64,000 bases of DNA, from positions 1-64,000 of the forward strand of contig JALFVN010000027.1 of NCBI GenBank assembly GCA_022787565.1, written 5' to 3'. Positions 35,965 through 50,874 of the stretch are shown one piece after another. Source of the DNA: Clostridiales bacterium (GTDB taxonomy: Bacteria; Bacillota; Clostridia; Oscillospirales; Oscillospiraceae). The position numbers and the translations under genes were made by a program. Position 1 is the first letter of the stretch. Every line of letters begins with the position of its first letter. Below the pieces are notes generated by a model. The model saw only the letters and a list, made by a program, of their open reading frames with translations, did not search any database and was not told the DNA's origin.

Positions 35965-36062
35965 GGATTCTCCTTTTTCTGCGCAGCTTTTCTTCCGCCT
36001 CATTTTATCGGCGAGGCTGGGGAAAAACCATAACGCAGTCGTTGAACCGCCGGAACAATGGC

Positions 36063-36077
36063 TCAACCGGCGGTTGA
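36063..36077. promoter_or_regulatory. 15-base palindrome upstream of the ABC exporter
   Basis: TCAACCG-G-CGGTTGA, a perfect palindrome around one base. A partial copy of one half (AACCGCCGG, 36045-36053) also forms a 9-bp stem with it. Candidate repressor operator about 100 bases before the exporter start. Confidence 0.45.
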
Positions 36078-36151
36078 AGTCTGTTTCGGCCTCGGTTTTG
36101 GCTCTCCTTCAGTGTTTGCTATGCTCCTGTACCGGGGAATTTGCGCGCAAA

Positions 36152-36182
36152 AATGCCCGGAAGAGCAGTTCTCCCGGGCATG
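36152..36182 (-). terminator. Intrinsic terminator upstream of the ABC exporter
   Basis: Minus strand ATGCCCGG-...-CCGGGCAT followed by TTTTT. It lies 24 bases after the stop of the short ORF 36206-36268 and about 190 bases before the exporter, so it could be an attenuator; it could also be the old terminator of the gene upstream before the element inserted. Confidence 0.8.
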
Positions 36183-36205
36183 ATAACATACCTATCCGTG
36201 GAAAA

Positions 36206-36268
36206 TCACATGGAGAGCCGCCTGCATATCAAGTTGGTGTTCACAAAATTCATGGTGGTGATGGACAT
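36206..36268 (-). CDS. Short ORF (20 residues) between element and exporter
   Basis: ATG at 36268, AAAGGAG 8 bases upstream, a 20-residue frame ending ICRRLSM, stop TGA. A perfect promoter lies upstream (36303-36331) and an intrinsic terminator downstream, which together resemble a leader peptide. The ribosome binding site is probably part of the mobile element and the codons part of the chromosome (see the attachment site proposal), so translation may be a product of integration. No known family. Confidence 0.45.
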   Translation of the reverse strand: MSITTMNFVNTNLICRRLSM

Positions 36269-36272
36269 TTTG
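36266..36272. other. Proposed left attachment core of the mobile element
   Basis: CATTTTG here (CAAAATG on the minus strand) is repeated exactly at 50106-50112. With the flanking bases, CGSCAAAATG matches at 9 of 10 positions. Both copies overlap an ATG. Large serine recombinases often leave only a few shared bases at the two ends. Confidence 0.45.
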
Positions 36273-36302
36273 GCGACTCCTTTCTTAAAAATTACCTTTG
36301 TT

Positions 36303-36331
36303 ATTATAACAGGCAGATATAGGTTTTGCAA
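36303..36331 (-). promoter_or_regulatory. Outward-reading promoter at the recombinase end
   Basis: Minus strand TTGCAA (36326-36331), 17 bases, TATAAT (36303-36308), with TG one base before the -10 box (extended -10). It overlaps the last codons and the stop of the recombinase gene and points out of the element toward the ABC exporter. Confidence 0.8.
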
Positions 36332-38136
36332 CACTCATCTGAATCACACACAGATAAAACGGATGTGACAGTTCCGGTTTCCTGTGTGTTTTCTATGTAA
36401 CCGGTTGCCCGGAAGAAGTCATCATAATCTTCTTTCGAGCAACCTTTAATGAAGATATGACAGTGACGCTCATCATTTTCATCGGTGATATAAATGCGCT
36501 CCACAAAGGTCTGTATCAGTGTTACAAGCACGACGGGTGCGGCGTTTTCAGCATACTTTCCGAAGGAGAGCAGCCGTTCTTTTATTTCTTCAATATCTCG
36601 GATAGCATACATCTGACTTTGTCTGCTGTCCTCTAATTTTTGCAGTAGCGTTTCTGTTTCGGAAAGCTCATCGGTCAGCGCCTTTACATCCTCCTGAATA
36701 AAGCGTTTCAGGCTGTTATCCGCTTCCCGAAGATTTTTCACCTGATTGGCTATTGCCGTTTCAAGCTGTGCCTTCTTCTTTCTGAGGTCGGACAGCTCTT
36801 TTTCATTCTGCGACGAACTAAAAATATCGGACGCTTTCTGGTTGAGAAGCTTTTCAAAGTATTCGCTGTCCTCATCGGCAAGGTGGGATAACTGTTGCAC
36901 AACAAATTCATCAAGCAAAACGCCGTCTACAGCCCGAAAAGTACATTCGCCTACACGGTAGCCGGGACAAACATACTTGAATCTCGGTTTGCCGTTAGTC
37001 CAGCGGTTGGATTCGGAGATAACCCGCAGGCGTTTCCCGCAATGCGGGCAGTAGACCAGTCCTGCAAGCAAGGCGTTGGTCTTTCGGTGCGGGCGGTTGT
37101 ATTTCTTGGCAATATCGTCCAGCATATTCTGCGTGTCGATCCATTTCTGACTTGAAATAAAGCCCTCGTGTCTGCCGACCGAGATAATCCATTCGGAAAG
37201 CGGCTTTGTTGACATTAACTGCACAAATTTCGGTGAAATAAAGGTGCTGTCGGCATCCTCGAATTTCTCCTGATCGGTCTTGTTGTAGGCGGAGATACCG
37301 TGCTGACCGTCAAAGTCTGAAATATCCCCGCACAAACCGCCATTGTGCTCCAAGAAATAATTGTATGCACTTTCGTCGGCGGTGCAGTAAACGGGATTTT
37401 TCAATAGCAGTCTTGTTGTGGAGCTGTTAAACTTACTCCCAACCTTTGTACGGTATCCAAGCTCGTTCATTTTGTCTGCGGTTTTTTTGATAGACCGAGT
37501 GGCTGCAAATATCTCATAGAGCTTTTGTATCATCGCTTTTTCCTCGGGAATGCTCTCCAAATAGCTGTAAGCGGACTTGTTTTTGCCACTGCCGGTTTTC
37601 ACACGCTTCACCGTAAAGCCTGTTGGGGTATTGCCGCCCAGCCAGCGCCCGTCTTTGGCAAGCTCCATCATATTATCGGTGATACGCTCGGTTAAGGTAT
37701 CACGCTCAAATTCGGCAACGACGGCGAATATTTGAATAAATATCTTTGATACGCCGGAAGCTGTATTGATATTGTTGGAGCAGATCAGCAAATTCACCTT
37801 GTGCTTTTCAAGAAAGTCAAGCAGCCGAAGCAGGTCACTGGTTTTTCTGCCGATACGGTCTAATTTGTAGCAAACAACGGCACGGATCTTGCCCATTTCA
37901 ATATCGTGAAGCATACGCTGAAAGTCGGGGCGGTCGGAATAGTAGCCGGAAAGCCCTTTATCCTCATATTCGAGAAAAGTGTAATCTTCATCAAGGTGCA
38001 ATTCCCGTTTGGCATATTCCGCACATTGTTTGAACTGTACGCCGATACTGTCTCCCTTGTTGGTGATGCGGGATTTCCGGGCGTAGATGGCTACGCCCCG
38101 GTTATCCTCAGTATTGTATTTTTGTTTCTTTGTCAT
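36304..38136 (-). CDS. Large serine recombinase (TnpX/TndX-like)
   Basis: Site-specific recombinase that integrates and excises the element. It has 610 residues. The N-terminal resolvase domain starts VAIYARKSRITNKGDS with catalytic Ser22, and continues DKGLSGYYSDRPDFQRMLHDI and CYKLDRIGRKTSDLLRLLDFL. A recombinase domain (about 190-290), a zinc ribbon (YCPHCGKRL...KYVCPGYR..EC) and a long coiled coil (about 440-540) follow. AGGAGG is 9 bases before the ATG. It lies at the end of the element, as is typical. Its 3' end carries the outward promoter. Confidence 0.93.
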   Translation of the reverse strand: MTKKQKYNTEDNRGVAIYARKSRITNKGDSIGVQFKQCAEYAKRELHLDEDYTFLEYEDKGLSGYYSDRPDFQRMLHDIEMGKIRAVVCYKLDRIGRKTSDLLRLLDFLEKHKVNLLICSNNINTASGVSKIFIQIFAVVAEFERDTLTERITDNMMELAKDGRWLGGNTPTGFTVKRVKTGSGKNKSAYSYLESIPEEKAMIQKLYEIFAATRSIKKTADKMNELGYRTKVGSKFNSSTTRLLLKNPVYCTADESAYNYFLEHNGGLCGDISDFDGQHGISAYNKTDQEKFEDADSTFISPKFVQLMSTKPLSEWIISVGRHEGFISSQKWIDTQNMLDDIAKKYNRPHRKTNALLAGLVYCPHCGKRLRVISESNRWTNGKPRFKYVCPGYRVGECTFRAVDGVLLDEFVVQQLSHLADEDSEYFEKLLNQKASDIFSSSQNEKELSDLRKKKAQLETAIANQVKNLREADNSLKRFIQEDVKALTDELSETETLLQKLEDSRQSQMYAIRDIEEIKERLLSFGKYAENAAPVVLVTLIQTFVERIYITDENDERHCHIFIKGCSKEDYDDFFRATGYIENTQETGTVTSVLSVCDSDECCKTYICLL

Positions 38137-38160
38137 AATATCAGTCCTCCTGTTTTTTCA

Positions 38161-38355
38161 TTATACAGCCAGCCCCGTGACGCTTTCCAATGTGCGGCCG
38201 TTTTTGCAAAGCTGGCGTAAGAGTAACCACAGCGTTTCGCTGTCAAGCGCTCGGATTTCCTGTTCCAGAAATTCCATTCGCTTGTGCTGAAAAGAACGGA
38301 GGGCGTTATTGTAGTTGTTGCCACGGTGAATGACAGCATTCATCTTAAAATCCAT
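38161..38355 (-). CDS. Conserved-looking 64-residue element protein
   Basis: 64 residues, helical and charged (RSFQHKRMEFLEQEIRALDSETLWLLLRQLC), no family recognised. AGGAGGTG lies 5 bases before the ATG. It sits between parB and the recombinase gene, 11 bases after parB and 24 before the recombinase, in one apparent transcript. In this position it might be an excision helper or directionality factor, but that is a guess from location only. Confidence 0.6.
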   Translation of the reverse strand: MDFKMNAVIHRGNNYNNALRSFQHKRMEFLEQEIRALDSETLWLLLRQLCKNGRTLESVTGLAV

Positions 38356-38366
38356 AAGCGCACCTC

Positions 38367-39209
38367 CTATCTCGAATCTCGGTCACGGTTGCGAAGATAC
38401 TTACGGTAATGTTCGCAAGCCCGGATAATGAAATCTTCCGTATTTTGTGAATCCATTCCTTTTGGAAGAACAGCTCGCAGACGCTCGGCAGAAACTTTGA
38501 TCGTTTCTTTTTGATTTGCTTTTACCTCGCACATAATACCTTCAATACAGGCTTTGGTGAGCAGTCCTTCACGGTCTGCCTTGTGCATACGGAAAGCCTG
38601 CGAATAGGACGGCGTGCAGTCATTGATTTCACATTGTTCCAACACATCGTATTGACTTTGTTCGTCGAGAAACGAAAGCTCCACACCAACGGACAGTGCC
38701 ATTTTACCTTCATCCATAAATTCAAGAAGTTCGGGAATAAGGTTTGTTAGGCGAATATAGCGCTGAACGGTACGACCACTTTCTGTATCTGAAACATTGT
38801 CACGAGACTTGTGGCCAACTTGTCCATAAGTGATACCTTGATGATTCAATGCCTCCATTTTTAACTTGTACGCAAATGCCTTTTCGCTTGGCAGAATATG
38901 CTCCCGGTGGAGGTTGCTGTCCACCACCGCAATGGCGGCAGCATCCCGGTCGAGGGCATAAATCAAGGCAGGGACCTCGGTAATCCCCGCCTTTTGTGCG
39001 GCGTGTAAACGGCGGTGGCCGCTTACGACTTCATATTCATCTGTATTTTCTATCGGTCGGACGATCAGCGGCGAGAGAACACCTTGCGTCTGTATGCTTT
39101 CGATCAGCGTATTCATTTCCTCATCGTCCTTGACCTTGAACGGGTGTCCGGCAAAGGGGCGCAATTTTTCTACCGGAATTGCCACCGGCTTTTTCATCGT
39201 ATTCTTCAT
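38367..39209 (-). CDS. parB: ParB/Spo0J-like partition protein
   Basis: 280 residues. The N-terminal ParB nuclease-like/CTPase domain has EVVSGHRRLHAAQKAGITEVPALI, and SNLHREHILPSEKAFAYKLKMEAL is the arginine patch and linker to the HTH domain. Such ParB homologues without ParA are common in clostridial mobile elements next to relaxase genes, where they may aid maintenance or regulate genes. It lies 2 bases after the relaxase stop on the same strand. Confidence 0.88.
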   Translation of the reverse strand: MKNTMKKPVAIPVEKLRPFAGHPFKVKDDEEMNTLIESIQTQGVLSPLIVRPIENTDEYEVVSGHRRLHAAQKAGITEVPALIYALDRDAAAIAVVDSNLHREHILPSEKAFAYKLKMEALNHQGITYGQVGHKSRDNVSDTESGRTVQRYIRLTNLIPELLEFMDEGKMALSVGVELSFLDEQSQYDVLEQCEINDCTPSYSQAFRMHKADREGLLTKACIEGIMCEVKANQKETIKVSAERLRAVLPKGMDSQNTEDFIIRACEHYRKYLRNRDRDSR

Positions 39210-39211
39210 TT

Positions 39212-40579
39212 TTATCTCCCTCTTTCTTTGTACCTTGCACGGGCTTTTTTCTCCAACTCGTGCTCTTGCTTTAACAGTTCATACAGGTGCGGAGATTTTT
39301 CTAAAATCCGTTCCGCACGGTGCAGACGCTCCCTTACGGGCTTCATCTGCTTGGATACTGCCTTGCGCTGTTTCTTGTTTTGCACTTGCTCCTCCGGCGA
39401 CTTGGGGCGGCGTATGCGGTTGCTGATGCCGCTGCGCTCACGCTCCAAAGTGGAAAGTTCTGCCTTGGATTGCTCAATACTGGCTTGGAGGTCGGCTACC
39501 GTATGGATACCGCGCTCCTGCAAGAAGTGATAGTCGGCAACCAGCTCCTTCAAATCCTTTTCCGCCGCTCGCAGATCCGGCGACAGCAGCATCACATCGG
39601 CAAGCTCGGCTACGATTTGAATCGCCGTTATGACAAGATAAAACACCGCATCTACCAAAACGGCGGCGGTGTCACAGCTGTGTTCAATGGAGAACCCCAG
39701 CTTTCGCAGCTCGTCCTCTAATGGAAATTTCTTCGGCTTGTACGGCGGTCGGTATTCCAAGGTAAATAGCCGATACCGATTTTCGGCGTTCTGTCGTAGT
39801 TGTTCATTGACGCGATCTTTGGAAAAGCCGATGCCGCTCAGCCGCACGGCACGCTCCCAATGCTTCGCTTTAACCGAAAAGCGCACAGGGTCAAGGGTAT
39901 ACCCGAGCGCAAAGAGCTGACTTTCAAATTCTCTTGGACTGGTCGCAAAGGACAGGCAGTATTCCACATCTTCCCGCAGATAGTCTCGATGCGTTTTCTT
40001 GCCGGCCTTGTGAACCCAATATTCTTTCTTCTTGCCCTTGGAGTAGAAATCGCTGTTTTCCAGCACAGACAACTCGTGCTCCCGGCAGATCTCATCGGAG
40101 ATTTTACGCAGCTCCTTGTGGTCGCCGATTTTGTTTTTGAACTTTGCGCCGTCCCTGAAGGACACGGGATTCACAACAAAGTGGCAATGCACATTGTCGG
40201 TGTTCAGGTGGACGGTGACCAGCACCTGATACCGGTCGCCCCACATCCTTCTTGCGGTTTCCTTGCCAATGGCAAACGCCTGCTCCGGCGTGACCTCGCC
40301 CTTGCGAAAGCTCTGAATACCGTGGTAGCCCACCACCTTGCCACGCAGCCCAAATCGCCGCTGGACGGCGATCATCTCGGCATAGGCGTTCTGCGCCGAG
40401 CAGTTGATGCCGCCCACAAACATTTTGCGGTCGGTCTTGTTATCGTTCTCTGCATAGCGCAGAGCGGCGTATAGATCCTCGTCGAGATATTCCGGGGCGG
40501 TAGTCTTGTCGGGATTGTCGGCGTAGTCCAGCGTGGCTTTCAGGTTTTTGAACACAGGCCAAAAGCCTGTTACGGCCAT
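39212..40579 (-). CDS. MOBP-type relaxase
   Basis: Nicks DNA at oriT and pilots the strand during mobilization. It has 455 residues. The N-terminal relaxase domain has a tyrosine candidate near residue 19 (TLDYADNPDKT) and the metal-binding histidines in VLVTVHLNTDNVHCHFVVNPVSF. The C-terminal third is a charged coiled coil. It is preceded by mobC with 6 bases between, and the inverted-repeat-rich region lies beyond mobC, the usual oriT-mobC-mobA order. Confidence 0.9.
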   Translation of the reverse strand: MAVTGFWPVFKNLKATLDYADNPDKTTAPEYLDEDLYAALRYAENDNKTDRKMFVGGINCSAQNAYAEMIAVQRRFGLRGKVVGYHGIQSFRKGEVTPEQAFAIGKETARRMWGDRYQVLVTVHLNTDNVHCHFVVNPVSFRDGAKFKNKIGDHKELRKISDEICREHELSVLENSDFYSKGKKKEYWVHKAGKKTHRDYLREDVEYCLSFATSPREFESQLFALGYTLDPVRFSVKAKHWERAVRLSGIGFSKDRVNEQLRQNAENRYRLFTLEYRPPYKPKKFPLEDELRKLGFSIEHSCDTAAVLVDAVFYLVITAIQIVAELADVMLLSPDLRAAEKDLKELVADYHFLQERGIHTVADLQASIEQSKAELSTLERERSGISNRIRRPKSPEEQVQNKKQRKAVSKQMKPVRERLHRAERILEKSPHLYELLKQEHELEKKARARYKERGR

Positions 40580-40585
40580 ACCGCA

Positions 40586-40864
40586 TCACCCCTTTCCAGG
40601 CAGCAGGAATTCTGCTGTGATGTGTTTCAGCACCGTGCAAATTTCTTTGTCCAACTCCGGTGAACTCGCCTTGCCCGCAAGCTCGCCCAGCTTTTCAAGG
40701 CAAGCAAAAAGAGCGTCAGGCGGAACCGCTCTCGGCTCATACCCTAACGCTCTTTGCTTGACATATTCGGTTGTTGAAAGCCCGCATCTTCGGGCTTTTG
40801 ATTGTATTTTCTCTTTTTCTTTTGCCGTGACTCGCACGGCAATTCGTATATCTTTCATATACAT
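40586..40864 (-). CDS. mobC: MobC-like relaxosome accessory protein
   Basis: 92 residues. The N-terminal IRIAVRVTAKEKEKIQSKARRCGLSTTEYVKQRALG is a ribbon-helix-helix pattern typical of MobC proteins, which bind oriT and help the relaxase open it. AAGGA is 4 bases before the ATG at 40864 and 10 before the next at 40858; either may be used. It is directly upstream of the relaxase gene and next to the inverted repeats at 40899-41006. Confidence 0.82.
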   Translation of the reverse strand: MYMKDIRIAVRVTAKEKEKIQSKARRCGLSTTEYVKQRALGYEPRAVPPDALFACLEKLGELAGKASSPELDKEICTVLKHITAEFLLPGKG

Positions 40865-41230
40865 TATTCCTTCTTTCATTCTTTTTTTCGGGGGGATTGG
40901 GGGCAGTAAGCCCCCAAAGAGCAAAGCCGCAAGAAAATCTGCGGCTTTTGATTGGGACTTTGGCACACAAAGTCCCTGCTTGTTACGGTGTAAGACACAC
41001 ACCGTAGGTGATATTCATCTGTTCTCAGTGGATTGCACCGTGAGGGAGCGACCTCATACCGTTCTTATTGGTGCAAATCGTGCTTTTATTCCATTTTTCT
41101 GCGGTATTGTCATCACTTTTTAAGAGAGTGCCGTCAGTATTGCAGAATAGTGAAACCATTGGGTATTGTGGGGACAATTCTTTTCTGTATTGCCATCACA
41201 GGACCGTCAAAAGCAGGAATAAGTGACACC
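40865..41230. other. Probable oriT region
   Basis: 366 bases with no gene. Four consecutive inverted repeats lie here: GGGGGC/GCCCCC (40899-40915), AAAGCCGCA/TGCGGCTTT (40923-40948), GGGACTTTG/CAAAGTCCC (40954-40976), TACGGTGT/ACACCGTA (40984-41006). A further stem follows at about 41033-41075 (TTGCACC/GGTGCAA, enclosing TGAGG/CCTCA). This density directly upstream of mobC and the relaxase is typical of an origin of transfer. Confidence 0.65.
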
Positions 41231-41557
41231 TTAGAAGCTGTCAAGAAAATCGAGCATTGCTTCTTCGGATTCTGCCTTGCTTTCCTTTTCGGCGGGTGTT
41301 TGTGCAACAGGCTGTTGCACCAGTTGTAATAAGCCACCAAGGGGATTGACTTTTGCGGTTTCTTCTCGGATTGTTGAGATAACCCTTTCGAGGAAAGCTT
41401 CTTCATCTGCTTTAGTTTTGGACAGCTCCACATATCCGCAGATAGCAGAAATGACCGCCTTGCTGTATGAAACCTCTGCGTTTTGCAGATACTCGTAAGC
41501 CTTGCGGTCATTTTCTTTACTCAGATTTAAGCGGACTTTTACATTCTTAACGCTCAT
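41231..41557 (-). CDS. ParR-like adaptor protein
   Basis: 108 residues. The N-terminus (VRLNLSKENDRKAYEYLQNAEVSYSKAVISAICGYVEL) fits a ribbon-helix-helix DNA-binding domain as in ParR; the C-terminus is acidic with EEAMLDFLDSF, similar to the short tail by which ParR contacts the filament end. Its ATG overlaps the stop of the ParM-like gene by 4 bases. It probably binds a centromere-like site on the element. ParR is inferred mainly from the gene pair. Confidence 0.7.
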   Translation of the reverse strand: MSVKNVKVRLNLSKENDRKAYEYLQNAEVSYSKAVISAICGYVELSKTKADEEAFLERVISTIREETAKVNPLGGLLQLVQQPVAQTPAEKESKAESEEAMLDFLDSF

Positions 41558-42480
41558 GACACACCACCTTTTCTATTAAGGGTAACAAGTGCCATATATT
41601 CATAGCCTTTGGCGGTGGCACAAATATCCTCGTTGATAATCACTCGGCTTGCATCATACTCAGCAAAGTTGCGAATCAGGCACCCACCGCCGCCGACCAC
41701 ATAGAGTTTCATCAGCTTGGAATCGTATTCGTGTTCACGCAGGCGGCGGAAGATACCGGCGCTGTATTCCTTGGCGATCTTGACAACCGTATCAAGATAC
41801 TGTCCGTCAATATCTGCCGTGCCCTTTTTGAGAATTTCCGTGATTATCGCATCATCAAGGGTTGTATGGTGGTGCTTCATCATCTGCTCACGGATAAGCA
41901 GAGCACATTGATGGGTGCCGTACTTCTCGGTAAACATACGCTGGGCATCAGGTTTCTTGTTTACAATCCGAAGCAGGTTCATTGTACCGTTGCCAATATC
42001 GCAGAGCATATTGACGCCCTTAAAATCACCGAGCCGTTCCGCAACGGCAGCGAACCCCTGTGGGTAGATTTCCGCACCAACAATTTTAACGCGGTATTCG
42101 GTGTTTCGGAAAGTAAAACTGACCTCGCCGTGCTGAAGCAAATACTTATTAAACTCCGCTTTCTGTTCGCTTACCCAAGTAAGGGGAAGTCCTGCGGCGA
42201 TAAATACAGAAGCCTCGGTGATGCGTTCTCTCCGTAACTCCCGTGCGATAGCGGCAAGGGTGAGTACATAATAGTCCTCGTCAGTAAACTTGTCTGCCAT
42301 AAATTCTTTGTGACCGACGCCGATAGAATAGTATTTGCCGTCCCATTGGAGCAGGTCGCTGACAAAGGTGGGTTCGGTATCAGTTTTCATCACACCTGTA
42401 GAGAAACAGCAATTTGCTGTTTTCATATTCCCATAACCGTGGTCGATACCGATAACGTACATTTCATTAAATTTTCTCAT
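41554..42480 (-). CDS. ParM/StbA-like actin ATPase
   Basis: 308 residues with the actin-fold phosphate motifs: IGIDHGYGNMKTA (phosphate 1), LCDIGNGTMNLLRI (phosphate 2) and LYVVGGGGCLIRNF (adenosine). ParM-type proteins form filaments that push plasmid copies apart. Presence on an integrated element suggests it replicates or is segregated as a circle at some stage (inference). AAAAGGAG is 10 bases before the ATG. Upstream comes the Cys-rich VLP gene, downstream the ParR-like gene. Confidence 0.85.
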   Translation of the reverse strand: MRKFNEMYVIGIDHGYGNMKTANCCFSTGVMKTDTEPTFVSDLLQWDGKYYSIGVGHKEFMADKFTDEDYYVLTLAAIARELRRERITEASVFIAAGLPLTWVSEQKAEFNKYLLQHGEVSFTFRNTEYRVKIVGAEIYPQGFAAVAERLGDFKGVNMLCDIGNGTMNLLRIVNKKPDAQRMFTEKYGTHQCALLIREQMMKHHHTTLDDAIITEILKKGTADIDGQYLDTVVKIAKEYSAGIFRRLREHEYDSKLMKLYVVGGGGCLIRNFAEYDASRVIINEDICATAKGYEYMALVTLNRKGGVS

Positions 42481-42499
42481 AATTTCATTTCTCCTTTTC

Positions 42500-42730
42500 T
42501 TACTTCAATTTGTTGTGCTTTTTGATTTGTTCGTACAGCTCTTTATCGGCGGGTAATACTGCTTTTTTGAAATAGTTGCAGTAAATCCCGTAGATAGAGA
42601 TAAGTTGCACGCAGCGGTGTGCTTCGCCATCGTCAAGCAGGATGCAGTTGCCGTCCTTATCACAGTTGGCGCACAGCGAATTAACAAGACGGTGAACCTT
42701 CTCCGCCTGCTTTGGTGTAGTCTTCATCAT
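42500..42730 (-). CDS. Cysteine-rich VLP-domain protein
   Basis: 76 residues with the pattern of this small domain, which is common in clostridial mobile elements: VHRLVNSLCANCDKDGNCILLDDGEAHRCVQ, then Cys and AVLPADKELYEQI near the end. The cysteines suggest a metal-binding or structural role; function is unknown. GGAGG is 8 bases before the ATG at 42730. First gene of the parM-parR unit. Confidence 0.82.
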   Translation of the reverse strand: MMKTTPKQAEKVHRLVNSLCANCDKDGNCILLDDGEAHRCVQLISIYGIYCNYFKKAVLPADKELYEQIKKHNKLK

Positions 42731-42766
42731 AGACCTTTCCTCCTTTCCATTTTCGGGCAGCAAAAA

Positions 42767-42788
42767 AGCCGCCGGCTTCCCGACGGCT
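42767..42788 (-). terminator. Terminator hairpin in the leader of the VLP-parM-parR genes
   Basis: Minus strand AGCCGTCGG-GAAG-CCGGCGGCT then TTTTTT. No gene lies upstream on this strand, so it would stop transcription before the VLP gene; a likely promoter (TTGCTG, 17 bases, TATTCT) lies about 50 bases further up. Possible attenuation. Confidence 0.65.
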
Positions 42789-43058
42789 GTGCCCGTGTAT
42801 TTGTGAGGTTTTCGCTCCCTCTACTTTATAGAATACGGAGATAAAGGTCTAACAGCAAGTATTACGCAACTCAAATTAAACGATTGGCGCAACTGTTCAT
42901 AAAGCATTGAAAATACTGTATTATTATGATATACTATATTGAAATCAAACTTTCTAAATGGTGTTGCAACTGAAAAATTCAAAACTTTTTTGATTTTTTG
43001 CAAAGGGATATTTATTGGACACTTGATATGTTAGAATTAGGATGGAGGGCAAGAAGCT
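42789..43058. other. Divergent promoter region between the VLP and DUF6076 genes
   Basis: AT-rich and without genes. It holds the minus-strand promoter candidate for the VLP-parM-parR genes and the plus-strand promoter at 42907-42935. Confidence 0.6.
42907..42935 (+). promoter_or_regulatory. Promoter of the DUF6076/sigma operon
   Basis: TTGAAA (42907-42912), 17 bases, TATACT (42930-42935). Confidence 0.75.
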
Positions 43059-44201
43059 ATGCGTGAAAAGGTTGACTATTTTACCGCAGACTACCGTGAC
43101 GGCAGAGTACATATCGGCGGCAAGGTATATCAGGCAGGGTATTTCGCCACCCATCTGCTGAATCAATTTTACGAAAATGACACCGCCGCCCGTATTTCCG
43201 TGTTCACAACGGATAATTGGCATTTAGAGCAAACGCTTGAAATCGGGTATATGGATAAGAAAGATTTTCTCGAAACCGGCGAGCGTATGCTGAACATCTT
43301 TAAGGCACTCCCATGGCTCGGCCCCTTTAATATGCTCGACACCAAAGCGGAACGGGAACGTGTGGCAAATCTCTTTACCGAAGAAATCTATACAAAGATA
43401 ACGGAATATTGGAAATGTAAAGCAGAAATCTATTCTATGACCGATGAGCAGGCGTTTCTTGACCTTGTCCCCAAGTCCTACAATAAGGAATTTATGACAG
43501 AAGCACGGGACTTGCTTAATGAGGTTTTCTTCACATTGGATTTCTATAATGATCTGACAGAGGATATGCGTAGCGCTTTTTACGCCCTGCGGAAATTTGT
43601 TTCCCGTACAGACGAGGCAGAGCGATTTGACGAGGAACATCTGCTCCCCATAGCGTTAGAGGTATTCGGTAAAGCTCCTTTCCCTGTGCAAACGGAATAT
43701 GTAGGTATCAAGAAATCCAGCCGCAGTAAAACGGCAACGGTGGCACGGCGGTTATATTTTGAAAGTTATTTCAGTTTTATCATAACAGATTTCTTTGAAG
43801 GTCTGCATCATGGACATTATCCGAGGCAATGCGAAATCTGCAAAAAGTATTTCCTTATGACCTCTGCCCGAAAGCAAAAATACTGTAACGGTATTTCTCC
43901 CTATGAGTATAACGGCGAAAAGAAAACTTGCAGACAATATGCCGTTATAATGGGCAAAAAGGAAAAAGTGGATGCACACCCGGTTCTGAGCATTCATAAA
44001 AAGCGTTGTAACTGCATCCGAGCCGAACTGTCCAAAGGTACGATAACAAGACAATTTGCAACGGCGGCGAAAGAAATTGCGGATGAGCTGAAAACATTGG
44101 CGATACACGGGGATGAATACACCGCCGAACAGTTCAAAAAGGATATGACACGGGAAGCGTTATATGCGCTGACCGACAAACGATTGAAGGAGCGGCAGTA
44201 A
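43059..44201 (+). CDS. DUF6076-like protein with zinc finger
   Basis: 380 residues. I recognise the general DUF6076-type of clostridial elements, without known function. The central to C-terminal zinc-finger-like segment CEICKKYFLMTSARKQKYC near residue 265-285 resembles CGNR-type fingers, and further cysteines follow (CRQY, CNCIR). GGAGGGC precedes the ATG by about 9 bases. It is followed 21 bases later by the sigma-like gene in the same transcript, suggesting a joint regulatory role. Confidence 0.7.
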   Translation: MREKVDYFTADYRDGRVHIGGKVYQAGYFATHLLNQFYENDTAARISVFTTDNWHLEQTLEIGYMDKKDFLETGERMLNIFKALPWLGPFNMLDTKAERERVANLFTEEIYTKITEYWKCKAEIYSMTDEQAFLDLVPKSYNKEFMTEARDLLNEVFFTLDFYNDLTEDMRSAFYALRKFVSRTDEAERFDEEHLLPIALEVFGKAPFPVQTEYVGIKKSSRSKTATVARRLYFESYFSFIITDFFEGLHHGHYPRQCEICKKYFLMTSARKQKYCNGISPYEYNGEKKTCRQYAVIMGKKEKVDAHPVLSIHKKRCNCIRAELSKGTITRQFATAAKEIADELKTLAIHGDEYTAEQFKKDMTREALYALTDKRLKERQ

Positions 44202-44222
44202 AACAGATGGGAGGTGAGTGCC

Positions 44223-45092
44223 GTGAAGGAATGGCAAAAGGAATTATATATCTACCGTCTTTCACCGGCGCCGCCGAAAAAAGACGATTTACAGGAGTAT
44301 ATTGATTTATACCTTGCCGAAAAAGACGAAACATATCTGTCTTGGTTTCTGCATTACTATGAGCCTACACTGAATACCACCGTTATGGGTATCGTACAGC
44401 GGTATTCGATGTTCGGGCATTTTCTTGATATAAAGGAAGCGTGTGTGCTCGGCATTCTGCGGGCGTTGGAGGACTATCCGAAAGATTGGGATGCACCTTT
44501 TATAACCTACAAAACCCGTATTATGTGGGAGGAAATTCACAGTTATATCCGTACAATGCGGACAGGCTTTACGGTGCAGAGTGACGATGAGTACCGCAAC
44601 CTGAGAAACATTATGCGGCTATATACCGCCTACAACAGCAAAGGTGATCCCGACACCTTAAAGAAGATTTCCGACGAGGTAGGTTTGTCCGGAAAGACTG
44701 TAAATGAGATTCTGCGAAGCGGCTTTCACAATATGCAGTTCATTGACTTTTACCGCAGTTATGCTGATGAGGACAGCGAAGAAAGCCGTGAAGATGTAAC
44801 CTGCGATTATACCTTTGAACCTTGCCGTGAGCTGATGCGTGCAGAACAGACCCATGCGGTATTCGGTGCATTAGACGAGCTTTCTTACCGTGAGCGTGAG
44901 GTCATACGCTCACACATCGGTTTTTGCCCCGATTGCCACAGTATGAAAAGTCCCAAGTTCAGACCGCACACATTCCAAGAGATTGCTTACAAAAACGAGC
45001 TATCCTCCGCAGAAGCGGCGGAGAACATCTACCACAAGGGTCTTGCGAAGATGAAAGACAAACTGCAAAAGAAAGGTATATTCCATCCATAA
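44223..45092 (+). CDS. Sigma-70-like factor with CPDC insertion
   Basis: 289 residues. A region-2-like core (NTTVMGIVQRYSMFGHFLDIKEACVLGILRALEDYP...FITYKTRIMWEEIHSYIR), a region-3-like helix (PDTLKKISDEVGLSGKTVNEIL) and a region-4-like end (GALDELSYREREVIRSH...TFQEIAYKNELSSAEAAENIYHKGLAKMKDKL) are visible. Region 4 is interrupted by about 20 residues with CPDC. GGGAGGTG is 7 bases from a GTG at 44223, preferred over the GTG at 44214. It may direct RNA polymerase to element genes. Confidence 0.75.
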   Translation: MKEWQKELYIYRLSPAPPKKDDLQEYIDLYLAEKDETYLSWFLHYYEPTLNTTVMGIVQRYSMFGHFLDIKEACVLGILRALEDYPKDWDAPFITYKTRIMWEEIHSYIRTMRTGFTVQSDDEYRNLRNIMRLYTAYNSKGDPDTLKKISDEVGLSGKTVNEILRSGFHNMQFIDFYRSYADEDSEESREDVTCDYTFEPCRELMRAEQTHAVFGALDELSYREREVIRSHIGFCPDCHSMKSPKFRPHTFQEIAYKNELSSAEAAENIYHKGLAKMKDKLQKKGIFHP

Positions 45093-45098
45093 AGCACG

Positions 45099-45127
45099 AA
45101 AGGCGCCGCATTTTTGCGACGCCTTTT
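45099..45127 (+). terminator. Terminator of the DUF6076/sigma operon
   Basis: AAAGGCGCCGC-ATTTTT-GCGACGCCTTT, then T residues. Confidence 0.85.
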
Positions 45128-45136
45128 CAGTATTCC

Positions 45137-45418
45137 TTATAATTTGCGAATATGTTCTTCGATCTGCTTTATAACTTCAATTAACACTGCATCGCTTTGT
45201 CCTGTTGGGTCTTGAAGTTTCCGATTATTATCAAAAGATATGCCGCTGTACAAACATCCGACATCACAGCCAATTGAGATTACAATATCCGTAGCAGGAA
45301 TTTTATTAAAGGTTTTACTGTGTTGAGTTTGTTCCATATCTATAGAGATATGCGGTGTATCCGTTATCGCTTTCTTTAAAATCCGCATCAATTTCATACA
45401 AGGGTGCAAAGATAACAA
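45137..45418 (-). pseudogene. Arsenate reductase (ArsC, LMW-PTP type), C-terminal fragment
   Basis: 93 residues are open. From about residue 25 the frame fits the C-terminal two thirds of thioredoxin-coupled arsenate reductases: SKTFNKIPATDIVISIGCDVGC and LQDPTGQSDAVLIEVIKQIEEHIRKL. The N-terminal catalytic loop (Cys-X5-Arg) is missing and no matching frame is found upstream, so it is most likely a broken gene. No other arsenic resistance genes are near. Its location between the element core and the cargo suggests a remnant of older cargo. Confidence 0.55.
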
Positions 45419-45534
45419 GAGTCTGCTCTATGACACATATACAAAGAGCAATAGGTCCGAAAAGGCTAAAGCAATACGGACTTTTTCAATGTTATATTAC
45501 TACGGCGAAAGGAGTATTACTTGTTAAGTTTATT

Positions 45535-45614
45535 GAACCACTGTGTACCAAATGGTATGCACGGTAGTGTGAGAGAGAGAATTTCTCAAGTAAGAAAAAT
45601 TCCTCCTACTCGAT
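45535..45614 (+). other. Relic of a group II intron 3' end (domains V-VI like)
   Basis: GAACCACTGTGTACC-AAAT-GGTATGCACGG forms a domain-V-like hairpin (GTG/CAC and TACC/GGTA with a TG bulge), followed by TAGTGTGAGAG and a second weak hairpin ending CTACTCGATT, as at the 3' ends of many bacterial group II introns. No reverse transcriptase frame is present. From memory of such sequences only. Confidence 0.4.
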
Positions 45615-45851
45615 TGGGAAGTATGCAAAACTTAAAAAGTTTGTGAGTAATCGGAGAAAACGTCTTCGCTCAGTATGGATGTTGCCGTGAGTATGCATTT
45701 TGACAAGAATGGGAGTAAAAAACGGGTACGACTTTTGCCTTATCTATCTGCAACGCCGGAGCCAGTCGTAACCCCAAAACGCGGTTTGCAAAAGTCACAC
45801 CAACAGATGACATTAAAAATCAAAAAATTTACGAATATCGTAAAATTATTC

Positions 45852-45880
45852 TTGACATGTCTTAGCTACGGTGATATACT
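45852..45880 (+). promoter_or_regulatory. Promoter of the CPBP cargo operon
   Basis: TTGACA (45852-45857), 17 bases, TATACT (45875-45880). Confidence 0.85.
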
Positions 45881-45936
45881 TTGTTTAACGATTTTCATTA
45901 AATAATTAACGCTAACAGCACTTGGAGGTAGTTTGT

Positions 45937-47211
45937 ATGGAAAAGTTCGTAAAGCACAGATTTCTAAACAGCGTGTTGTTTACTGCGCTGTTTGTTCCGC
46001 TGGGCTTTTTTCTTCTGCGCGATACCATTGCAGCAATAACCGGAATCATGTTTGAGTCCATTGGCGGAAAAGAGTCGTTTCTGTATCAGATTAACGAAGA
46101 CATTGCAAGGCTGATCATCGCCGGCCTGTTAATACTTATCATGCCGCTCTTTTTCAGGGGAAAATGCAATTTTGGATTCAAGGGCGGGAAGCTGGCACTG
46201 GGTATTTGTCTTGCCCTGCCGGAACTTATCGTTCCTGTATGGAACCTGTTGCAGATCAAGGTTTATGAGGCTCCTCTTGTTACCGGAGTCGCTGCCGTGG
46301 CTGCCGCGATCATGCACGGAATCGGGCCGGGCGTGTCTGAGGAGGTCTTTTGCCGGGGCTTCACCGTATCCAATCTAATGCGTATTTGGAAGGATAAGCC
46401 GAACAGGATCTTTCGCTGTATGCTGGTTTCCGGGGTTTCTTTCGGTCTTCTACATGCACTCAATGCCATCGCCACAGGCGATGTTTTTGCGGCGCTGATT
46501 CAAGTTATCTATACCGCCTCTATTGGCATGTTGGACGGTGCTATCTACCTTCGCTCACGAAACCTGTGGGGCGTGATCCTCATGCACACCCTGACTGATG
46601 TTTCCGCTTTCCTTGCTGTATTTGAAAGCAATGCCACCGGCATGGATATTATATTCTGTGTCTTCGGCTCGCTGCTGTTTATTGCCCTTGCCCTTTATTT
46701 GATTCGGCCTGCAAAACGGGCGGAGATCGACGAACTGTGGGCGGAGGACTGGTCCTTTGGGGATGAAGACGGAAAAAAGCGCATTAGTGCAAAGGTGGCT
46801 GCAATTCTGACCGCCGTTCTGGTTGTTACTTTTGCCGCATCCCTCGGTGTTACAATCTATCAGGCAAAAATGGGATATGATATTCCGTTTTTCCCCGCAT
46901 CTGAAAATGCACTCGATAAAGATGTGCAGTATCAGATTGGCGGAGACGGAAAAGAACTCACCATTTTGCTTCCTTATGAATTCGGCGGAAAATACGACTT
47001 GGAAAACTCCGATCCGGAATCATTTGTTTTGAAAGAGAGCCGGGAAAACGGAGACACCTATCTATTTGTGTTTTCCCACGAAGGCACCAGCACGGAAAAG
47101 GTCAAGATTACCTTCGGGTTGAGGTTAGGTGATATGTCCACCTCTATCAAAAACTATTCGGTATCCGTCAGCTTTAAGGACGATGGAAGTATTTCTACCG
47201 TCGGAGGGTAA
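45937..47211 (+). CDS. CPBP-family intramembrane metalloprotease
   Basis: 424 residues with about eight hydrophobic segments. The CPBP (Abi/CAAX-like) motifs are intact: EEVFCR (E135, E136, R140), FGLLH (H173) and HTLTD (H217, D221). After the membrane core there is a ninth helix (~285-305) and a C-terminal outside domain of about 115 residues rich in beta strands, unusual for this family. Members cleave prenylated or bacteriocin-type peptides or give self-immunity; some act in phage defence. GGAGGT is 8 bases from the ATG at 45937. First of four genes. Confidence 0.85.
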   Translation: MEKFVKHRFLNSVLFTALFVPLGFFLLRDTIAAITGIMFESIGGKESFLYQINEDIARLIIAGLLILIMPLFFRGKCNFGFKGGKLALGICLALPELIVPVWNLLQIKVYEAPLVTGVAAVAAAIMHGIGPGVSEEVFCRGFTVSNLMRIWKDKPNRIFRCMLVSGVSFGLLHALNAIATGDVFAALIQVIYTASIGMLDGAIYLRSRNLWGVILMHTLTDVSAFLAVFESNATGMDIIFCVFGSLLFIALALYLIRPAKRAEIDELWAEDWSFGDEDGKKRISAKVAAILTAVLVVTFAASLGVTIYQAKMGYDIPFFPASENALDKDVQYQIGGDGKELTILLPYEFGGKYDLENSDPESFVLKESRENGDTYLFVFSHEGTSTEKVKITFGLRLGDMSTSIKNYSVSVSFKDDGSISTVGG

Positions 47212-47214
47212 GCT

Positions 47215-47844
47215 ATGAAGAAATTATCCGCTGCGTTCGGAACCCTCCCCATGACATGGCCTGTTGTGTGCGTTTCTGCGGCAATCATCGGGATTTATGT
47301 GGGTGTCATCAATCAAATTCCGATACTTTATGATACTTCTTTTCGGGATATTGCCGTTACATATGAGTGGTGGGTGCTGTTTGCGCTTTTGATCGTGTCA
47401 AACTGCAAGAGCGCCCGTGAGGCAGGCATGAAATGCCTTGTGTTTTTTCTCATCAGTCAACCGATCATTTACCTCGTGGAGCTGCCCATGCTCGGATGGG
47501 ACAAGGCGATGTACTATTACTTGCGCATTTGGCTGCCAATTTCTTTGCTCACACTCCCGGGCGGAGCAGTCGCTTTCTTTGCCAAAAAGCAGAATGTGTT
47601 GGGTGCGGTAATTCTCGGTATCGGCAATACCATTGTTGCCCTGATGGGAGTAAGCTATTTTCTGAAATTGTACAGTGCGTTCCCTCGGCACTTGCTGACG
47701 GTCGTTTCCTGTGCTGCGATCATTGCCGTTCTTCTTATGGGGATGCAGCAGAAGTGGAAGACAAGATTTCTGTCGGCGGCAACGACTGTACTGCTGACAG
47801 CAGGTGTTATTATTTGGGCTGTGCTCAATGAACGAGTGATCTAA
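47215..47844 (+). CDS. Unrecognised six-helix membrane protein
   Basis: 209 residues with about six hydrophobic segments, a basic cytoplasmic C-terminal loop and no recognised motif. It starts 3 bases after the CPBP protease gene, with GGAGGGT just before the ATG, so the two are made together and may interact. It could be the substrate, a partner, or an immunity component for the protease (inference). No family assigned. Confidence 0.7.
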   Translation: MKKLSAAFGTLPMTWPVVCVSAAIIGIYVGVINQIPILYDTSFRDIAVTYEWWVLFALLIVSNCKSAREAGMKCLVFFLISQPIIYLVELPMLGWDKAMYYYLRIWLPISLLTLPGGAVAFFAKKQNVLGAVILGIGNTIVALMGVSYFLKLYSAFPRHLLTVVSCAAIIAVLLMGMQQKWKTRFLSAATTVLLTAGVIIWAVLNERVI

Positions 47845-47875
47845 CAATCGAAATCTAAAAATTAGGAGGAGTAAT

Positions 47876-48637
47876 ATGAATTCCAACACTATTGCAAAAT
47901 TCCACCTGTTCGGCAAGGTGGGAAAAATCGTTATGACAGTTTTATCCGTAATCGCAGCGCTTATAACAGTTAGCTGCTGCATTGCGACTGCTTTTGTAGC
48001 AACGCTCCCGAAGGATGCTCTGACGGTTCGTGTGGTCGAGCACGCTGAATTCCGCTTTAACAAAGCAAGCTTTGATACGCTGTGGAGCATCCTCGGCGGA
48101 AGCTTTACCTATTCGGGAAAAGAGTTCCCGGAGTATATGCTTGAGGATAGCGAAAAGAAAGCCATCCCACCCGAAAATCAGGAGTTCCAAGCCGAACTGA
48201 AGATTTTCAACCAGTCATACGCCTCGGCGGAAATACACTCTGACGAAACCGCCAAAGTCATGGAGGCGGATACGTCCCCTGAGGAATATAATGTAAAAGA
48301 TTTGGTAACGGTATTTATTTTTCTGACGGTGTTTTCGGCATCTGCAGCTGCTGCGCTTTGGATGCTGAGAAGGCTGTTCGCGGTGCTGACGAAGTGTGAA
48401 TCGCCCTTTTGCTGTGAAGTTGTAAATAGAATGAGAAGCTTTGGTTTTTCTCTTCTTCCTGTTGCAGTGTTCGCCTCTATCGGTGAAACGATGCTGGAAA
48501 GCTTCTTGACCGCCGGAAAAAGCACAAATGTCAGTATTCAATGGGGCATTTTGATTGCTTTTGTTGTAACTATGGCCTTGGTGGCTGTTTTCAAGTATGG
48601 TGTTCAGTTGCAGAAAGAATCGGATGAGACCCTGTAA
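47876..48637 (+). CDS. DUF2975-family membrane protein
   Basis: 253 residues: a hydrophobic segment at 20-42, an outside region of about 90 residues, then three helices (~140-165, ~190-212, ~222-243) with the conserved loop LFAVLTKCESPFCCEVVNRMRSFGFSLL. DUF2975 proteins are almost always followed by a YozG-type Cro/CI regulator, as here. AGGAGG lies before the ATG. The pair is thought to be a membrane-linked regulatory unit; the signal is unknown. Confidence 0.8.
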   Translation: MNSNTIAKFHLFGKVGKIVMTVLSVIAALITVSCCIATAFVATLPKDALTVRVVEHAEFRFNKASFDTLWSILGGSFTYSGKEFPEYMLEDSEKKAIPPENQEFQAELKIFNQSYASAEIHSDETAKVMEADTSPEEYNVKDLVTVFIFLTVFSASAAAALWMLRRLFAVLTKCESPFCCEVVNRMRSFGFSLLPVAVFASIGETMLESFLTAGKSTNVSIQWGILIAFVVTMALVAVFKYGVQLQKESDETL

Positions 48638-48649
48638 GGAGGCGGAGAG

Positions 48650-48871
48650 ATGGGACACATCATTTTGCGGTTAGACCGTGTCATGGCTGACAGAAAAATG
48701 AGCCTGAATGAATTATCGGCAAGAGTTGGCGTTGCCAATGTGAATTTATCCAAGATGAAGAACGGCCATATCAGCGCCATCCGCTTTTCCACACTGGCGG
48801 CTATCTGTGATGTCCTAAAATGCCAGCCGGGAGACATCTTGGAATACAGCCCTGAAGAAAAAAATAACTAA
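48650..48871 (+). CDS. YozG-like Cro/CI-family regulator
   Basis: 73 residues, a single helix-turn-helix: MADRKMSLNELSARVGVANVNLSKMKNGHISAIRFSTLAAICDVLKCQPGDILEY. It is the usual partner of DUF2975 proteins. AGGAGG lies 6 bases before the ATG. Last gene of the cargo operon; it may repress the operon's own promoter. Confidence 0.88.
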   Translation: MGHIILRLDRVMADRKMSLNELSARVGVANVNLSKMKNGHISAIRFSTLAAICDVLKCQPGDILEYSPEEKNN

Positions 48872-48886
48872 ATTCTAAAAAGCTAA

Positions 48887-48923
48887 AGGCCGCCAGACTC
48901 AAATGAGACTTGACGGTCTTTTT
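48887..48923 (+). terminator. Terminator of the CPBP cargo operon
   Basis: AAAGGCCGCCAGACTC pairs with GAGACTTGACGGTCTTT with mismatches, then TTTTGT. Confidence 0.7.
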
Positions 48924-49006
48924 GTCAAACTGATAAAGCAAGCAAACTGAATTTGGTATAATTTAACAGTATAGACGGCAAAGATTTCCCTGACGCCATT
49001 TCTGCT

Positions 49007-49384
49007 TTAGGTGTAAATCAAATCGTTGTTTACAATTTCTGCGGCTCTGCTGCGGATGTTATTCATTTGAACAACCCATTTCATTTGATTATCCGCTTTG
49101 AGTTTCTCGGTAACACCTTCATGCTCTGCCATCTGTTTTATTAGTCGAGAAAACATTTCTTCTGCCTGCTTGTCAATGTCAACAAGGTAACCATTCAGCT
49201 TACCGCTTGTCAGGAGATTGATGTAAAGCACCTTGCGGTGTTGCCTGATGTACCGCAAATGTCGCTGTCCCCATACACCGATAGGATGTTGTTCTTCCTC
49301 CGGCAACTTCAAGCAGGGAATGTAATAGTCGCCTTGAAGTTCATACCAAAGACCGTTCTTTTCATCATAAATAACCTTTTCCAT
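49007..49384 (-). CDS. TnpV-family transposon protein
   Basis: 125 residues. YDEKNGLWYELQGDYYIPCLKLPEEEQHPIGVWGQRHLRYIRQHRKVLYINLLTSGKL matches TnpV, first described on Tn4451; its function in transposition is not settled. AAGGAGG is 7 bases before the ATG at 49384. It follows a 60-residue gene by 2 bases on the same strand. A family marker for Tn4451-like elements. Confidence 0.85.
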   Translation of the reverse strand: MEKVIYDEKNGLWYELQGDYYIPCLKLPEEEQHPIGVWGQRHLRYIRQHRKVLYINLLTSGKLNGYLVDIDKQAEEMFSRLIKQMAEHEGVTEKLKADNQMKWVVQMNNIRSRAAEIVNNDLIYT

Positions 49385-49386
49385 AA

Positions 49387-49569
49387 TCACGCCTCCTTGT
49401 AAATTACTTTGAATTTCTTTTGTTTTGCACCAATGATTTTAAGCAGAACCTCGTCCACCGCATCGGTATACTTACCGTCAGCAATAAGCTTGTTTCTTAA
49501 TTTGTTCAGGCTCTCAATCATAAGCCGATGTTCTTGAGCGTTTAGTGCAAGATAGTATTTTTGCTTCAT
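49387..49569 (-). CDS. Small 60-residue element protein
   Basis: 60 residues, helical and charged (KYYLALNAQEHRLMIESLNKLRNKLIADGKYTDAVDEVLLKII). GAGGAGG lies 7 bases before the ATG at 49569. It lies 2 bases upstream of tnpV and is probably co-transcribed. No function known. Confidence 0.7.
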   Translation of the reverse strand: MKQKYYLALNAQEHRLMIESLNKLRNKLIADGKYTDAVDEVLLKIIGAKQKKFKVIYKEA

Positions 49570-49679
49570 AACCGGTCCTCCTCTCATTTCTGCAATTATT
49601 GTAGTATAGGAAATCACAAAAATCGAATGTGCGGATAAAAAATGAGCGTACCCACCGTTTTATGTGAGTACGCTCAATG

Positions 49680-50108
49680 CTATATTTCGGGATAAATAGT
49701 TTTTAGTTGCTGATACATTTTTCTTGACGGTCTGCGGCTACCCGACTCCCATTTCATGTAGATACTCGGAGAAATACCGGCACTTTCGGCAAAATCACCT
49801 TGGTTAAGTCCATGACGCTTTCTGACCGTATGTAATATTTCCGTATATGGTGCGCTTATGAAAATGCAGAAATCGTCAAATAGCAGGGACTCGGGTATTT
49901 GCAATTCCTTAGCGAGTAAAACAGCAATATCGTACGGAATCGGGAAACGCCTCTGTTCATAGCCGAGAACTGTTGCCGGTACAATGTTTAACTTCTCTGC
50001 AAGTTGCCTTGTGGTAAGCCCCCTCAGTTGGCGATAGTACCGCATATATTCTCCGGGACTGTTTAATGTGTTCAATGATTCAAAGGTAAATCTCAAGTGC
50101 ATCAGCAT
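49680..50108 (-). CDS. Two-domain HTH regulator at the element end
   Basis: 142 residues with two Cro/CI helix-turn-helix units: RGLTTRQLAEKLNIVPATVLGYEQRRFPIP and HGLNQGDFAESAGISPSIYMKWESGSRRPS. In the integrated state there is no ribosome binding site upstream of the ATG at 50108. If the element circularises at the CAAAATG cores, the recombinase end would place AAAGGAG 8 bases before this ATG and a full sigma-A promoter upstream. It may thus be expressed only from the circle. Confidence 0.8.
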   Translation of the reverse strand: MLMHLRFTFESLNTLNSPGEYMRYYRQLRGLTTRQLAEKLNIVPATVLGYEQRRFPIPYDIAVLLAKELQIPESLLFDDFCIFISAPYTEILHTVRKRHGLNQGDFAESAGISPSIYMKWESGSRRPSRKMYQQLKTIYPEI

Positions 50109-50112
50109 TTTG
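50106..50112. other. Proposed right attachment core of the mobile element
   Basis: CATTTTG identical to 36266-36272. It contains the ATG (complement) of the terminal HTH gene. Chromosomal GC-rich sequence resumes beyond it. Confidence 0.45.
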
Positions 50113-50169
50113 CCGTGCCGGTATTCATATAGCCCTGTGTGATTGAGAACAGTATCGCATTGGCAACAA

Positions 50170-50874
50170 TTATTTTACTGTTTCAAAAGAAACTCCGGCT
50201 TCCCGGAAAATATCGCAGATGCTGTCGGCATAGGAAGCGATGTCGCTTTCCGCGTCTGGCAGGGTGATGATAAAATGCTTGCCCTTGTATGGCAGGCCGG
50301 TCAGCACATCCCACAGCGCATCCAGATTGTTGCCGTACCACTTTTGCCAATCCATCTTTTCCCGCAGTTCATCGAAAAGCTGGGGCTTTTCCGTGCAGCG
50401 GGAGAAGTCCAGCTCCACCGGTTCGGCCAGCAGCGCAAACAGGCCCAGGCAGCCGGCCTCCACATCCCGCCAGGTGGCCTCAAAATCCCGGGTATACCAG
50501 GGATCTGCCACAGCCTCTCCGGGACGTCCCGCAAATTCCAGCAGCAGATGGAGCTTTCGGCCCGGATCGCCGGCGAACAGGCGGCGCATATTGCGCATGT
50601 TCTCCCCGTCCATGCCGATGAGCATGTCAAAGTTCCGGTAATCCTCCGGGCGCAGCCGCCGGGCAGTCTTGCCCGCGCAGCCGATGCCGTGCTCGGCCAG
50701 CTTCCGGGCGGCAGGCGGGTAAACCGGGTTGCCCAGTTCCTCGCTGCTGGTGGCGGCGGACGCAATGGCAAACTCATCCGCCATCCCCGCCGTATTCACG
50801 ATGTCTTTCATCACAAATTCCGCCATCGGACTGCGGCAGATATTGCCGTGGCAAACAAATAATATCTTAATCAT
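50170..50874 (-). CDS. Low-molecular-weight protein tyrosine phosphatase fused to a barstar domain
   Basis: 234 residues. Residues 1-150 are a LMW phosphatase: the P-loop CHGNICRS gives the C8-X5-R14 site, and the acid D124 lies in DPWY. Residues 153-230 match barstar, the RNase inhibitor fold, with the signature YGNNLDALWDVLTG (180-193) and final helix YADSICDIFREAG. LMW phosphatases normally end near 150, so the fusion is unusual. The phosphatase acts on phosphotyrosine (or on arginine phosphate in Bacillus YwlE). The barstar part may bind an RNase or serve as a scaffold; no barnase is visible nearby. GGAAGGA precedes the ATG. Confidence 0.85.
   Translation of the reverse strand: MIKILFVCHGNICRSPMAEFVMKDIVNTAGMADEFAIASAATSSEELGNPVYPPAARKLAEHGIGCAGKTARRLRPEDYRNFDMLIGMDGENMRNMRRLFAGDPGRKLHLLLEFAGRPGEAVADPWYTRDFEATWRDVEAGCLGLFALLAEPVELDFSRCTEKPQLFDELREKMDWQKWYGNNLDALWDVLTGLPYKGKHFIITLPDAESDIASYADSICDIFREAGVSFETVK

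Follow-up and report, generated by a model that had tools for sequence, protein, structure and literature searches.

Which gene does the mobile element of this locus make or break when it leaves or enters the chromosome, and where exactly is the joint? The question concerns a stretch of 64,000 nucleotides (contig JALFVN010000027.1 of the Clostridiales bacterium assembly GCA_022787565.1; "the window" means this whole stretch), in which an integrated element carries a large serine recombinase gene at one end and a reading frame for a helix-turn-helix (HTH) protein at the other. We consider it about 75% probable that the two are parts of a single gene of ~763 codons, whose product is a large serine recombinase that carries a tandem HTH domain at its C-terminus and within which the attachment site attP lies. 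The crossover point, the stop-free in-frame junction, the chromosomal stop codon of the recombinase and the selection acting on the HTH half can all be read from the sequence itself. The features concerned are the following.

36327..50161, no strand: integrated element, core to core, 13,835 bp, delimited by two empty sites, the dyad and divergence in relatives.
36304..38136, minus strand: large serine recombinase, with 610 codons in the integrated form; all of its sequence below the core at 36325, namely the final codons and the stop, comes from the chromosome.
49680..50162, minus strand: HTH half; no stop interrupts its frame between the core and the terminal stop at 49680, and 18 codons precede the ATG at 50108.
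36325..36350, minus strand: recombinase-side attachment half, with arm TGTGTGATT at 36342-36350, a 15-bp spacer and the core AA at 36325-36326.
50136..50161, minus strand: HTH-side attachment half, with the core AA at 50160-50161, a 15-bp spacer and arm AATCACACA at 50136-50144.

The ends of the element were placed with the help of uninterrupted chromosomes. A search for the HTH-side flank in 101 genomes of the genus, among them that of the window, gave some match in 82; two genomes, G080 (locus L003) and G098 (L004/L024), matched at 88-89% over about 700 bases. The recombinase-side flank, sought in seven chosen genomes, matched the same two at 89-90% in the adjoining place. In both empty sites TTGCCAAACC comes only a few bases after the phosphatase-barstar gene; TGTTATAATAAC and AAGAAAGGAGTCGCCAAAATGTCC are next, and the sequence continues to the exporter genes. 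Homology alone narrowed the crossover only to TGTTGC[C/A]AA. On the recombinase side, most relatives read TTGCA and then AA, with divergence thereafter. The dyad centred on this AA core has the form TGTGTGATT-15-AA-15-AATCACACA, and its symmetry extends to 19 of 26 positions, a score that 6 pairs attained among 360,000 cut pairs, counting the proposed one. Relatives keep the arms and spacing of the dyad with either AA or TT as the core; in a sister family TT replaces AA at both ends, and elements with AA and TT cores lie in opposite orientation in an IS200-type transposase gene, as the dinucleotide would predict. The circle junction expected from this crossover reads TGTGTGATTCAGATGAGTGTTGCAAATGCGATACTGTTCTCAATCACACA on the minus strand.

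When the circle of the window's element was closed in silico at AA, the recombinase frame ran into the HTH frame without a stop and gave a product of 763 amino acids. Both ends lie on a single stretch in six elements, four of which, the window's included, yield fused frames of 761-768 amino acids (761, 765 and 768 in the three other intact ones). The relatives are mostly metagenome assemblies, and ends on different contigs were counted singly and not joined. The core was in reach in 27 of 29 recombinase sequences (all except L054 and L056; L066 and L136 are probably one place), and its phase was identical in 27/27; in six of these, the aligned portion contains a stop at some point farther upstream. 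Past the core, the recombinase frame continues for 2 to 56 codons into the target sequence before it stops, apart from L043, which runs off its contig; the recombinase tails differ from site to site, and the stop is supplied by the target. At the other end, the arm was present in 27 of 29 HTH sequences, again with matching phase in 27/27; 22 of these HTH halves stay open for more than 100 codons before a stop, four run off the contig and one has a premature stop. The Pfam domains of the recombinase (Resolvase at residues 15-165, Recombinase at 197-340 and Zn_ribbon_recom at 356-416) all precede the core, and the HTH half matches Pfam HTH_3 in two stretches.

Is the HTH frame upstream of its first ATG used as protein? 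Conservation of codons 1-9 of the HTH half proves little because these codons lie in attP. Codons 10-18, by contrast, lie between attP and the ATG at 50108, outside the dyad. The ratio of nonsynonymous to synonymous differences (pN/pS) was determined for 16 of the 27 HTH ends, the other 11 being duplicates, partial, decayed or too divergent for gap-free alignment. For codons 10-18, 37 within-group pairs gave a pN/pS of 0.13 in frame versus 1.10 and 2.54 in the shifted frames, and 83 between-group pairs gave 0.27 versus 1.43 and 1.44, the pairs not being independent of one another; the in-frame value for the HTH domain was 0.25. As judged from these substitution patterns, codons upstream of any conserved start are under purifying selection as protein. 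This selection is best explained by translation from the closed circle, because the host sequence upstream of the HTH half varies from site to site. No start codon is conserved between attP and the ATG at 50108, and the latter, which the initial annotation had taken for the start of the HTH gene, is replaced by ATA, TTG, CTG or CCG in some relatives. Within the first 45 codons, L092 and L093 have only an ATG at codon 39, L097 only a TTG at codon 11 and L096 only a TTG at codon 25.

In two far relatives, L060 and L063, the recombinase shares 29-30% identity with that of the window, and the attachment arms are different. The best-scoring dyads of each include a cut where the recombinase frame ends, with 18 (L060) and 17 (L063) of 26 positions symmetric; neighbouring or other cuts tie with it, and the background is loose. 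When the flanks are joined at the AA cut, both regain a sigma-factor open reading frame (ORF), and Pfam, run on the restored ORF of L060, identified Sigma70_r2 and r4. Their circles would encode 764 (L060) and 770 (L063) codons, counted from the stop before the recombinase. The HTH half contains no ATG, GTG or TTG before codon 65 in L060 or codon 41 in L063, and between the two, most differences in codons 10-49 are synonymous when read in frame (9 to 4), unlike in the shifted frames (2 to 9 and 1 to 11). The layout is kept across recombinases of only ~29-30% identity that differ in arms and targets, the latter comprising IS200-type transposase, isochorismatase-domain and sigma-factor genes and a promoter. 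The far-relative dyad search gave no pair above the loose background in L059, L061, L064, L065, L068, L070-L072 and L080.

The alternative that survives best, improbable as we consider it, is that the HTH gene is an ordinary separate regulator, translated from an ATG of its own (at 50108 or at codon 40) whether or not the element is integrated, the read-through in the circle being incidental. Many close relatives do have an ATG at codon 19, and in the window GGAG precedes the ATG at codon 40, so that a short HTH protein is possible in the integrated state. However, neither start is conserved, codons 10-18 are under protein-level selection, and L060 and L063 show mostly synonymous differences in codons that precede any available start. 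A second alternative attributes the conservation across the core solely to constraint on attP as DNA, the in-frame join being accidental. The arms and spacers of attP are indeed strongly conserved as DNA, but codons 10-18, lying outside the dyad, show a synonymous excess in the HTH frame only, and L060 and L063 keep an open frame of similar total length with other arms; we therefore regard this explanation as very unlikely.

Several observations weigh against a single recombinase-HTH gene or against its generality. The pairs in the pN/pS comparison are not independent, and the codon-40 ATG of the window has its GGAG. Two of the six whole elements have a decayed recombinase (a frameshift in L153, an early stop in L154), the HTH sequences of L087 and L146 lack the arm, and the HTH half is interrupted by a stop in L101 and, among the far relatives, in L062; in L067 and L069, no HTH followed the best dyad. 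Neither a circle junction nor a fused copy turned up in the collections searched. Searches with the fused protein gave no match among plasmids, four records matching the HTH part only among phages, and matches to separate halves in 391 class genomes. The exact 18-base pattern of the circle junction had no match in viral_contigs, and the dyad pattern was absent from the 391 class genomes and matched two IMG/VR contigs, in which no credible relatives of the recombinase or HTH protein were present.

A few single sequences were set aside. A 408-codon open frame in G542 was rejected as a natural fusion, since in it a foreign gene half stands in front of an HTH half that contains several HTH-like repeats. 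In L144 (G542:C18) the HTH half measures about 409 codons and has several repeats of this kind. The HTH end of G040 was not readable, the arm found there having a different dinucleotide, which was taken as chance, and the contig ending at this place. In L106 (G516:C108) the HTH start passes directly into mid-recombinase sequence, indicating a deleted mini-element or an assembly error.

The initial annotation had offered a third explanation, in which CAAAATG is the core and joining of the ends places a promoter and a ribosome-binding site before the HTH gene. The chromosomal features that bear on it are given here.

36303..36331, minus strand: chromosomal promoter, with -35 TTGCAA at 36326-36331, 17 bp and -10 TATAAT at 36303-36308 (by consensus, by eye).
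36206..36283, minus strand: AAAGGAG at 36277-36283 and a 20-codon leader ORF at 36206-36268, chromosomal, in both empty sites (translated by eye).
34243..36066, minus strand: ABC exporter gene, chromosomal, beyond the recombinase end; the flank matches both empty-site genomes.
50170..50874, minus strand: phosphatase-barstar gene (Pfam LMWPc and Barstar), chromosomal, beyond the HTH end; the flank matches both empty-site genomes.

CAAAATG does occur on the minus strand at 36266-36272 and 50106-50112 with an ATG in each copy, TGTTATAAT and AAAGGAG do lie upstream of the first copy, the spacing to AAAGGAG after joining would be favourable, and the ATG at 50108 is, by eye, not preceded by a ribosome-binding site. 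Nevertheless, this explanation is scarcely tenable: promoter, AAAGGAG and first CAAAATG are all contained in the two empty sites, the symmetry at a CAAAATG core amounts to 6-12 of 26 positions versus 19 at AA, and the word is frequent by chance. It was found 18 times in the window versus a mean of 14.5 in shuffled sequences, with 18 reached in 22 of 100 shuffles; its presence at both places therefore means little. CAAAATG was accordingly rejected as the core, and the two copies are not the ends of the element: the AA core lies 53 bp from the first copy, on the recombinase-gene side, and 48 bp outside the second. Alignment of the empty sites, which had been named beforehand as the deciding test, places the crossover elsewhere than CAAAATG in both G080 and G098 and refutes the proposed promoter swap.

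The uninterrupted chromosome of these two genomes carries the promoter, AAAGGAGTCGCCAAAATGTCC and the subsequent short ORF. The -10 box, AAAGGAG, the CAAAATG at 36266 and the short ORF are therefore chromosomal, and promoter and ribosome-binding site, which stay in the chromosome, belong to the leader region of the ABC-exporter genes; they are not exchanged when the ends are joined. The insertion point lies inside the -35 box of this promoter. In the empty sites the box reads TTGCCA, 17 bp from TATAAT, and the element end restores TTGCAA at unchanged spacing (both by eye). Between leader ORF and exporter gene lie a GC-rich hairpin (36155-36179) and then a T run (region 36149-36283, minus strand). 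Leader ORF, hairpin and T run look like an attenuator; the fold of the leader stretch (36149-36283) was not unusual, 12 of 200 shuffles folding equally well.

With the recombinase frame running through attP, exclusive production of the HTH regulator by the excised circle is supported, though by another route than the promoter swap: it would probably be made there as part of the recombinase. The excised circle would produce a recombinase-HTH fusion. Recombination with attB would then sever the HTH domain, leaving the three recognised recombinase domains with a short site-specific tail, and the headless HTH half would fall silent. The form of the protein would thereby report whether the element is integrated. 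The likeliest uses of such a switch, whose function we infer, would be to distinguish the integrating form, with HTH domain, from the form that lacks it after integration, or to confine a regulator to the circle. Tentatively, a serine recombinase may in this way record its own state: integration would remove the HTH domain, and the difference between the enzyme before and after could, with no separate directionality factor needed, set the direction of recombination or terminate a programme confined to the circle. Such a switch of direction is plausible by analogy, because in engineered fusions of serine integrases with a recombination directionality factor (RDF) the fused domain can change the direction of recombination and favour the reverse reaction (PMC5737554). 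The engineered fusions use an RDF as partner (PMC5737554), whereas the element has a natural HTH partner with a putative effect on recombination.

The further genes of the element that were assigned by Pfam are listed below.

38367..39209, minus strand: ParB-like element gene (ParB_N).
39212..40579, minus strand: MobA/VirD2-type relaxase (Relaxase).
40586..41002, minus strand: NikA-like mobilization protein (NikA-like).
41554..42480, minus strand: actin-like (ParM-type) protein (ALP_N).
49007..49390, minus strand: TnpV family protein (TnpV).

Serine recombinase and relaxase thus occur together, and empty sites with a 2-bp shared core exist elsewhere (G080, G098), two marks of an integrative mobilizable element. 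A cargo block on the plus strand (45922-48871) encodes a CAAX-protease-like protein, an unknown protein of 209 amino acids, a DUF2975-like protein, whose match falls below the Pfam cut-off, and a small HTH protein. The chromosomal gene at 50170-50874, in which a low-molecular-weight phosphatase and a barstar domain are fused, has two weaker copies in the same genome (contigs C52 and C54).

Close recombinases are rare in the window's group: among 400 family genomes only its own copy was found (E 1e-150), and 7 of 102 genus genomes contain recombinase relatives (E 1e-60). Scattered Firmicutes records hold 39 recombinase loci, close and far. Many relatives share one insertion point in IS200-type transposase genes; this family (Y1_Tnp) was matched by the joined flanks of L151 and L155 and by the HTH-side flank of L092, and the flanks of L083, L085, L089, L093, L100 and L105 are similar to transposase by eye. 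L152 is inserted in an isochorismatase-domain gene. The targets of L103, L035 and L144 are presumably macro-domain-like, as judged by eye; no Pfam family was detected in the L103 half. In a skin-like manner, the insertions in L060 (2721) and L063 (4823) split a sporulation-type sigma-factor ORF, presumably sigK, which was seamlessly rejoined by in silico removal.

How does this arrangement compare with known systems? In Tn4451, as cited in the initial annotation, closure of the circle creates a promoter for the recombinase; the recombinase gene described here points outward, across attP, and its start is therefore not beside the joint. Tn4451-type mobilizable elements otherwise resemble the element in having a relaxase, a serine recombinase, a 2-bp core and a TnpV family gene (PMC5704250). 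In ICEKp1, state-dependent promoter switching likewise makes gene output differ between the integrated and the excised form, but that switch is transcriptional and acts on the integrase gene, whereas here the coding sequence itself is cut (PMC13023037). The mycobacteriophages with integration-dependent immunity have attP in a regulatory ORF, and integration alters the C-terminus and activity of its product; the BPs repressor loses a degradation tag and becomes active (PMC4557955), whereas the recombinase would lose a whole tandem HTH domain of about 160 residues. Suicidal integrases of archaea (SSV1, pTN3, pT26-2) have attP inside the recombinase gene, which is split by integration, and such self-disrupting recombinases have been stated to be exclusive to archaea (PMC8371274). 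They share with the element, as far as its circle can be deduced, an attP within the recombinase reading frame and the splitting of that frame on integration. The archaeal enzymes are tyrosine recombinases whose catalytic part is split off, which is thought to inactivate them (PMC8371274); the element encodes a bacterial serine recombinase whose recombinase domains stay whole while the HTH domain is lost. An attP within a gene is known from archaeal suicidal integrases and mycobacteriophage immunity, and neither system has the recombinase-HTH arrangement. No bacterial self-splitting serine recombinase appeared among the literature titles listed, drawn from a collection with few subscription papers and preprints.

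For annotation, the arrangement carries a warning, in that integrated copies give a chimeric recombinase C-terminus and a guessed N-terminus of the HTH protein. The HTH domain, which integration would remove, offers a concrete candidate for control, and the element would be a bacterial, serine-type counterpart of the self-splitting integrases in which the enzyme domains survive.

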